A stretch of DNA of 32,427 nucleotides, from contig JACROD010000023.1 of NCBI GenBank assembly GCA_016214605.1, forward strand, positions 1 through 32,427, written 5' to 3'. This stretch comes from Candidatus Kaiserbacteria bacterium. GTDB taxonomy: Bacteria > Patescibacteriota > Minisyncoccia > Phycocordibacterales > UBA2100. The translations under genes and the position numbers were made by a program. The notes under the pieces are model-generated. The model had not been told where the DNA came from and ran no database searches. It worked only from the letters and a program-made list of their open reading frames with translations. Of the stretch, positions 6,643-32,029 are shown piece by piece; positions within the stretch are counted from its first letter, which is position 1; each line of letters starts with the position of its first letter.

Positions 6643-7110
6643 ATGAACATGAACCCGGTAGTCCATTTTGAAATGCCTTATGAGGATCGTGCGCGCATGG
6701 CCGACTTTTATACCAAGACCTTCGGCTGGAAGGCCCAAATGATGGGGCCCGAAATGGGCGAATACGCCGTCGTGCATACTGGCGAGACCAATTTTTCTTA
6801 GCGGTAAACCGCTTTAGAAAAATGGCCATGCCCTTGTGGTAAGACGGATGAGAATCAAATGCTCAAAAAGCCGGGGATGATCAACGGCGGCCTCTTCAAG
6901 AAGACCCCCGACAATCAGCATCCCTCGATCGTCATCGCGGTCGAGGATATCCGCGCATCGATCCAAAAGGTCAAAGACGCGGGCGGCAAGATCATCGACA
7001 TGGAGACACCCGGAGAGCCGATGGAGATCCCCGGCATCGGGCTCTATATCGGATTTATCGACACCGAGGGCAATCGGGTCTCTATGCTCCAGCCGACGGC
7101 GATGATGTAG
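6643..7110 (+). pseudogene. VOC-family (glyoxalase-like) gene split by a 57-bp repeat
   Basis: The first part (6643-6801, 52 codons, beginning MNMNPVVHFEMPYEDRARMA) gives the first half of a VOC/glyoxalase-like protein. It runs into TAG at 6799, inside an inserted palindromic repeat. The second part resumes in the same frame at 6844 (TDENQM..., ORF-track ATG at 6859) and ends in VSMLQPTAMM at 7110. Deleting 6789-6845 (57 bp) joins GAG-AC to G-GAT-GAG and restores a continuous GETDENQ reading, as expected in homologues. Two stops (TAG 6799, TAA 6805) in the insert prevent read-through. The full protein would be about 137 residues with paired beta-alpha-beta-beta-beta modules. The C-terminal half alone has no ribosome binding site that I can see. 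Confidence 0.85.
6784..6840 (+). repeat. 57-bp palindromic dispersed repeat, copy 1
   Basis: Starts GAGACCAATTTTTCTTAGC and ends GGCCATGCCCTTGTGGT. It matches the copy at 31882-31938 at 55 of 57 positions; the differences are G/A at 6803 and A/G at 6808. The segment 6788-6825 is an imperfect hairpin: CCAATTTTTCTTAGCGG, loop TAAA, CCGCTTTAGAAAAATGG. AGAC occurs at both ends (6785-6788 and 6842-6845), so a 4-bp target duplication is possible. It interrupts the VOC coding sequence, which shows it is an insertion. Confidence 0.85.
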
Positions 7111-14027: not shown

Positions 14028-14072
14028 AGTAACACCAGTGGGCGGCCCTCAGGGCCGCCCGCTGGTGTTACT
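14028..14072. terminator. Long inverted repeat between convergent genes
   Basis: 22-bp arms (AGTAACACCAGTGGGCGGCC... / ...GGCCGCCCGCTGGTGTTACT) with one mismatch and a single base between them. It overlaps the stop of the GH15 gene. T-tracts are poor on both sides, so termination strength is uncertain, but the stem is very stable. Confidence 0.7.
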
Positions 14073-30673: not shown

Positions 30674-31759
30674 CTACAATCCTTCGCTACGGAGTTTCTC
30701 CACAAGGTCACGTGCCGCCTTCGAGAGCTTCTTGGGGAACTGAATATCAATGCGTACCAGCAGGTCGCCGCGCGATCCGCGGCCCGACGGTACGCCTTTT
30801 GACTTGAGGCGGATCATTTCGCCATGGACGACTCCGGCGGGTACGGGGACGCTCTCGTCGCCGTCAAGTGTGCGGACGGTGTAGGTGCCACCGAGGAGTG
30901 CATCGGTGAGCTTGATCGAGAGTGTGGTGATGAGCGTCGTGCCCTCACGCGTGAAGGCTGAGTCCTGCTTCACATGGAGCTTTACATAGAGATCCCCCGC
31001 GCCGCCGCCCGGGGCCACTTCTCCCCTGCCCGGCATGCGGATCATCTCGCCGTCGGAGACTCCGGCAGGTACCGAGACATGGATCTCTTCTTGACGTCTC
31101 GCGACACCTTCGCCACGGCAGGTGGGGCACACGGTCTCAGGGATCTCTCCGCGCCCGTGGCATTTGGGGCAGGTGCGCGTGGTCGTGACGGTGCCAAAGA
31201 TCGAATTGCGTGTCTCGCGGATTTCGCCCTTGCCATTGCAGCTCGTGCAGGTGACCATCTTGGAGCCTTTCTTGGCGCCCGATCCTTCGCAGGTCTCGCA
31301 GACACCGATCTTGGATACGAGGACGCGGCGATCGGTACCAAAAATGCTTTCTTTGAATGAAAGCTCGATATCGATCGAGACGTCGCGGCCCCTCGACTGC
31401 GCTCGGGACGCGCCTCCGCCGCCGAAGAATTCACCAAAGATATCGCCGAGATCGAATTCGACATTTTGGCCGTTGAAGTCAAAACCGCCGCCGTTTTGGA
31501 AACCGGAAAAATCGAATCCGCCAAAACCGCCCCCTTGCGGTCCCCCACCACCGGCAAACGTCTTGCCGTATGCATCGTATTCAGCGCGCTTCTTCTTGTC
31601 GGACAAAACCGAATAGGCTTCACTCACTTCTTTGAACTTGGCCTCGTCACCGCTTTTCTTGTCAGGGTGATATTTGTGAGCGAGCGTGCGAAAAGCCTTC
31701 TTGATATCTTCTTCGCTAGCCTTTTTTGATACTCCAAGGATGTCGTAATAGTTTTTCAT
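30674..31759 (-). CDS. dnaJ: Chaperone protein DnaJ
   Basis: 361 residues, type I DnaJ with all parts: J domain with HPD ([17 protein letters not shown]), a Gly/Phe-rich linker (residues about 70-118), four CxxCxGxG zinc motifs ([32 protein letters not shown]) and the C-terminal substrate-binding domains. It activates DnaK ATPase and hands over unfolded clients. No dnaK or grpE is next to it in the window. The start is at 31759 with no clear Shine-Dalgarno; a hairpin-rich leader precedes it. Confidence 0.95.
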
Positions 31760-31881: not shown

Positions 31882-31938
31882 GAGACCAATTTTTCTTAGC
31901 AGTAAGCCGCTTTAGAAAAATGGCCATGCCCTTGTGGT
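31882..31938 (+). repeat. 57-bp palindromic dispersed repeat, copy 2
   Basis: Same start (GAGACCAATTTTTCTTAGC) and end (CCATGCCCTTGTGGT) as copy 1 at 6784-6840, with two substitutions. Both are in the central stem: G to A, which breaks one pair, and A to G in the loop. AGAC again occurs on both sides (31883-31886, 31943-31946), here 60 bp apart rather than 57. It is intergenic, between dnaJ and the gene at 32030. Confidence 0.85.
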
Positions 31939-32029
31939 GCAAAGACTGACACTATCAGCGTATTCGCGGTATTGTATTGCAATAAGTATTGTGATACTAG
32001 TTAGCTTAGTTGTTGATTAGGAGGATGAA

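Follow-up and report, generated by a model that had tools for sequence, protein, structure and literature searches.

A 57-bp hairpin repeat of Patescibacteria, very probably a gene-free mobile DNA element

The stretch of DNA analysed here (the window, 32,427 nucleotides) contains one 57-nt sequence at two places, which raises the question of what this unit is and how it came to lie at both of them. The two copies, both on the plus strand, are identical at 55 of 57 positions (96%) and form the strongest direct repeat within the window. A BLAST search of the whole genome with copy 1 as the query recovers copy 2 with E=1.9e-21, far above chance. Both mismatches between the copies are in or beside the loop and one of them disrupts a pair; the earlier note had described the repeat and its differences near the hairpin tip exactly. 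Copy 1 splits a glyoxalase-like gene, and copy 2 is located in the gap from which dnaJ and an ORF of 80 residues diverge. The features are as follows.

6643..7110, plus strand: interrupted glyoxalase-like gene (Pfam PF00903 once the flanks are joined)
6784..6840, plus strand: copy 1 of the unit, within the glyoxalase/VOC-like gene
6799-6801 (TAG) and 6805-6807 (TAA), plus strand: in-frame stops of copy 1
30674..31759, minus strand: dnaJ, its start about 120 bp from copy 2
31882..31938, plus strand: copy 2 of the 57-bp hairpin unit, between dnaJ (minus) and the small ORF (plus)
31889..31896, plus strand: copy 2, 5' arm of the P2 outer stem, ATTTTTCT, pairing with 31914-31921
31898..31902, plus strand: copy 2, 5' arm of the P2 inner stem, pairing with 31907-31911; the A in GCAG breaks one pair
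31907..31911, plus strand: copy 2, 3' arm of the P2 inner stem
31914..31921, plus strand: copy 2, 3' arm of the P2 outer stem, AGAAAAAT
31922..31938, plus strand: copy 2, conserved 3' tail, GGCCATGCCCTTGTGGT (family form GGAAGTACTCTTGTGGT)
31928-31930 with 31936-31938, plus strand: copy 2 tail, possible small hairpin P3
32030..32272, plus strand: small ORF of 80 aa with no family, neighbour of copy 2

Nothing supports the 80-aa ORF as a part of the element, and it is considered a neighbour only. No tRNA or tmRNA was found in the window. A near-perfect inverted repeat of 22 bp with a 1-nt centre is present at 14028-14072.

The family to which the two copies belong has a uniform architecture. 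Nearly all of 151 copies are 52-58 nt long and are built, in this order, of GCGACC (GAGACC in the subfamily of G000, the window's own genome), the hairpin P2 and a conserved tail of 17 nt. P2 comprises an outer stem, an asymmetric T/TT bulge and an inner stem. At the foot of the hairpin, GACC faces GG or G. The ends of the element, GCGACC and GTGGT, show a weak terminal complementarity (GCGACCA...TGGTGC). Covariation was measured on two gap-free alignments, each of equal-length units, in which 94.9% and 92.2% of the cells are paired versus 81% and 80% after shuffling. Changes on both sides occur at 9 of the 13 P2 pairs in each alignment, and double changes are found in 34 and 26 cells versus 9.5 and 5.5 in the shuffles. 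The earlier note's remark that there is no compensatory pairing is thus true of the window pair alone. One-sided (wobble, G-T) changes are almost absent from P2. This dominance of full swaps, with nearly no G-U intermediates, points to a constraint that probably acts on the DNA palindrome rather than on RNA. For P3, located in the tail, the two aligned sets show no changes other than wobble ones; its fuller versions in diverged relatives are suggestive of a second hairpin formed by the tail. An outer helix, P1, was considered as a part of the element and dropped, since the complementarity of the flanks is confined to a subset of copies and fits insertion into pre-existing hairpins.

G000, the genome of a Kaiserbacteria-like Patescibacterium (1.09 Mb in 34 contigs), carries about 10 copies according to BLAST and 13 according to the covariance model, and relatives carry copies as well, so that the repeat is not restricted to a single pair, an outcome that the earlier note had considered damaging to its proposal. 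The covariance model detects the element in 23 of the 52 genomes of the genus with 1-15 copies each, some carriers having a single copy only, and, with a stricter cut-off, 7 of 287 genomes sampled across the phylum carry it. A scan of GTDB for the pattern of the conserved ends matched 118 contigs, nearly all of them from Patescibacteria, with titles that include Kaiser-, Taylor-, Lloyd-, Nomura-, Niyogi-, Vogel-, Wolfe- and Zambryskibacteria. Other Patescibacteria, a few unlabelled bins and two contigs labelled Gammaproteobacteria and Omnitrophica complete the set; the last two may be mis-binned. The same pattern had 0 matches in viral contigs, and a phage origin was rejected on this ground. 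The patchy distribution fits mobile DNA.

Some copies are associated with other repeats. At four loci of G000 (L001, L006, L013 and L022), the copies adjoin a repeat, TCAAGGAGCTACGGCACCG, with GAATTC/CAGAAT hairpins. Nested within a unit at L025 (G015:C15, about 1399-1547), and bordered by CTTAG direct repeats, is a repeat with two hairpins, roughly 85-90 bp long (CCCGTTCATAAATAAC...GTTATTTATGGAC). A sequence resembling this double-hairpin repeat is located downstream of a RAYT at L071.

Copies inside genes can be compared with empty homologues. The homologues of the glyoxalase-like gene in G053, G005 and G007 are intact at the site of copy 1, and the gain is exactly 57 nt, the two stops included. 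The codon at this site is E (GAG) in 4 of 4 homologues, and for this reason the target of copy 1 was apparently GAGAC. If no target duplication took place here, one later substitution is needed, GAGAC to AAGAC; a 4-bp duplication (GTCT) fits equally. The dusB gene (tRNA-dihydrouridine synthase) of Paceibacterota STE_50 (L201) contains two head-to-tail units, antisense and with the frame kept open, that separate V from A in the PIVAQ motif; this motif is present as such or nearly so, ungapped, in 20 DusB homologues. This dusB has gained the two 57-nt units and nothing more, and the letters at the site are also compatible with a duplication of 4-5 bp (TCGC or GTCGC). In prmC of Parcubacteria S40-23 (L254), one unit in the sense orientation is open in frame as 19 codons, and the insert aligns to a gap in HemK structures. 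Yet another unit opens an rsmH gene in frame, although the true start codon of this gene may lie elsewhere. In G010, one unit interrupts a degenerate second 5S gene; an intact 5S gene lies alongside, and insertion into a sole 5S rRNA gene was therefore rejected. Per copy, the total gain is one unit in dusB as in the glyoxalase gene, with which a duplication of 4-5 bp would still be compatible. On comparison of these sequences, insertion appears to add exactly one unit, with no further target duplication evident.

Different inserts are present in some of the same genes. A second short insert, LPTGRQATSR, is found in the PrmC of L254 where HemK has a gap, and it may derive from a further in-frame repeat. 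In G023 (L087, G023:C14, near 1401-1530), the glyoxalase homologue has a different, GC-rich in-frame insert of about 30 residues near the same spot as copy 1, and a sequence like it adjoins a unit in G055, beside the L138 copy. The insert of G023 and G055 probably represents a second gene-invading repeat family.

Relative to tRNA and protein genes, the copies occur in either orientation, and 19 of 127 are at most 100 bp from a tRNA gene, as compared with 2.8% of random positions. Seven of the 127 pattern copies, each of them antisense, are fused to a tRNA gene, and the joint invariably falls exactly between bases 72 and 73. At these fusions the unit begins ACCACAAG immediately after acceptor base 72 and provides base 73 and the CCA (ACCA); CCA is not encoded in the majority of the remaining tRNA genes at these loci. 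Since the search pattern partly dictates the last acceptor base, the constancy of that base is no evidence. The gene of the CCA-adding enzyme recurs near copies, probably as the neighbour of a tRNA gene. Flank-to-flank complementarity is 12.64 versus 10.69 +/- 0.27 in shuffled pairings, and strong flank helices make up 13.6% versus 2.7%. This excess is due to a subset of copies sitting in the loops of pre-existing hairpins such as terminators (for example, L161, L167, L181 and L209).

Head-to-tail arrays have a constant junction, GTGGT^GCGACC (^ marks the joint), and the stems often differ within one array (L184, L215, L237, G052 and G007). The pre-insertion targets match the unit's own junction at a mean of 2.81 of 8 positions versus 2.18 +/- 0.10 in shuffled sets, 0 of 1000 of which reach as high; G is enriched at -2 and C at +2, giving the weak consensus GN^GC. 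The target in PrmC is unlike the junction and counts against this likeness. Targets that resemble the junction may also explain the head-to-tail arrays. The target of copy 1, GGC^GAGAC, fits the junction GGT^GAGAC if one change, to AAGAC, followed later, and this is the best explanation of an observation of the earlier note, namely that both window copies start with GAGACC and are followed by AAGAC (6841-6845 with a 0-nt gap for copy 1; 31942-31946 with a 3-nt gap for copy 2). The note concluded from AAGAC that the flanks are not random. AAGAC, however, occurs within 0-3 nt downstream of just 3 of 128 non-tandem copies, two of which are those of the window, and GAGACC or GCGACC forms the 5' end of the element itself and is not a flank. 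The GAGAC-like target that it proposed survives in the apparent target of copy 1 and in the weak family-wide preference for junction-like targets, but AAGAC is not a feature of the family.

The repeat is very probably a non-autonomous, gene-free mobile DNA element of about 52-58 bp, consisting of a bulged hairpin and two conserved ends. It counts against this reading that neither movement nor polymorphism has been seen directly, that the search for an autonomous copy or a linked transposase gave none, and that some genomes have a single copy. In the proposed pathway, the hairpin would be recognised by a trans-acting enzyme, for which a transposase or recombinase of a single-strand kind (HUH-type or similar) is the likeliest candidate, and the two ends of the element would be joined to form a circular or end-joined intermediate. 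The intermediate would then insert where the target resembles the end-to-end junction, and the surviving copies would mostly be those that landed where harm is small. The single-strand enzyme and the end-joined intermediate, taken alone, are a tentative proposal with a somewhat less than even chance of being right. A more speculative suggestion is that the gene-free hairpin travels with its ends joined, probably as a single-strand circle, and selects targets similar to its own joint, which would produce the head-to-tail arrays and the caps placed exactly at the CCA end of tRNA genes; its enzyme would belong to a class so far linked to no repeat.

The unit could instead be a MITE, a shortened descendant of an ordinary IS, mobilised by a transposase that duplicates its target. 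Like a MITE, it is short, dispersed and non-autonomous, its ends are weakly complementary, and both intragenic sites for which empty homologues are known allow direct repeats of 4-5 nt to be read. However, GGTCGC/GGTCTC, the presumed duplication, does not vary among copies whose flanks are unrelated and therefore belongs to the element, most copies have no flanking direct repeat, and no full-length parent IS sharing the terminal repeats was found near the 118 loci. A MITE origin is thus considered unlikely.

It is improbable that the unit is the REP sequence of a co-resident RAYT (REP-associated tyrosine transposase), amplified by that enzyme. RAYT-like PF01797 genes are plentiful in the genus (45 of 52 genomes; 6 genes in G000 and 12 in G015), and a bulged hairpin with a conserved foot and no obvious target duplication would suit such an enzyme. 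These genes, however, are flanked by palindromes of their own, usually perfect and with GTCYGAC or similar centres, none of which is like the unit, and the unit is without the GT[AG]G foot. The density of RAYT genes near copies equals the background (7 in 867 kb, none adjacent), and the copy number does not rise and fall with the number of PF01797 genes (rho 0.22, p 0.12). The earlier note had suggested looking for a transposase whose terminal hairpins match the unit; none was found among the PF01797 proteins.

The palindromes at RAYT loci of G000, G007 and G015 (L065-L082 and others) are often centred on GTCYGAC, for example TTGTGCAAGTCTGACTTGCACAA, and the RAYT loci of the genus are regarded as a CPR counterpart of REPtrons or TIRtrons.

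The neighbourhoods of the 118 loci contain no autonomous copy or linked transposase and no recurrent non-housekeeping gene; a recurrent neighbour was rejected as the mover, the clusters near copies consisting of housekeeping genes or of that same background of RAYTs. Nor does the presence of the element go with that of TnpA-IS200-type genes (E<1e-30; 2/6 against 21/46 genomes).

That the unit is a cis-acting RNA (riboswitch-like, a terminator or a processing signal) selected for RNA function is very improbable: strong P2 covariation, G-U wobble tolerated in P3, conserved junction sequences and the frequency of copies near tRNA genes and terminators would agree with it, but the unit matches no Rfam family, occurs in both orientations, as tandems, inside coding regions and in a degenerate 5S copy, swaps its P2 pairs with scarcely any G-U intermediate, as fits a DNA palindrome, and has no recurrent non-housekeeping neighbour gene.

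As a mobile element, the unit is closest in behaviour to the palindromic elements of Rickettsia and Wolbachia (RPE and WPE), which are small, gene-free, found in reduced genomes between genes and in frame within protein genes, and have no dedicated transposase known (PMC10969869, PMC3767692, PMC3733652). The unit is likewise a multicopy palindromic hairpin without a gene, in frame within protein genes (two units in DusB, one in PrmC). Length, end tag and host set it apart, and it is not a member of these families: it is 52-58 bp long versus their about 100-150, its ends are GCGACC and GTGGT, not CGTC, and its hosts are nearly always Patescibacteria, a different phylum from that of RPE, with no Rickettsiales among the GTDB matches. 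It also differs in its long conserved 3' tail, end-to-end tandems and exact junctions between tRNA bases 72 and 73. The CGTC-tagged REPs are palindromes tagged at one end, some of them intragenic, with no associated transposase (PMC3733652). The unit, too, is a one-end-tagged and sometimes intragenic palindrome, but its tag is GCGACC, its bulged stem is longer, its tail has 17 nt versus 3 bp, and it clusters head to tail, whereas they form head-to-head dimers.

GTAG-tagged REPs, which belong with RAYTs (TnpA-REP), are bulged hairpins on a conserved foot, with no evident target duplication (PMC3733652, PMC6006769). The unit shares the bulged hairpin and conserved foot, but has no GT[AG]G foot and was not found adjoining a RAYT gene. 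With the subterminal hairpins of IS200/IS605 (TnpA-IS200), it has in common a bulged hairpin with conserved single-strand segments and insertion without evident duplication, and the proposed joining of its ends would resemble their circular intermediate. In contrast to IS200/IS605, it is a single unit and has no gene enclosed by a left and a right end, and TnpA-IS200-type genes do not follow its presence. Searches of a part of the literature, open-access papers only, gave no description of palindromic elements in Patescibacteria.

Small selfish palindromes that enter genes without breaking the frame have been known chiefly from Rickettsia and Wolbachia; the element extends them by an example at the level of a phylum, and its hosts are genomes under extreme reduction. 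For annotation it is a warning, as units may add inserts of 19 residues to conserved proteins such as DusB and PrmC. How gene-free hairpins move has been a question since the Rickettsia elements were first described, and the empty sites, exact tRNA junctions and arrays of this family provide handles on it.
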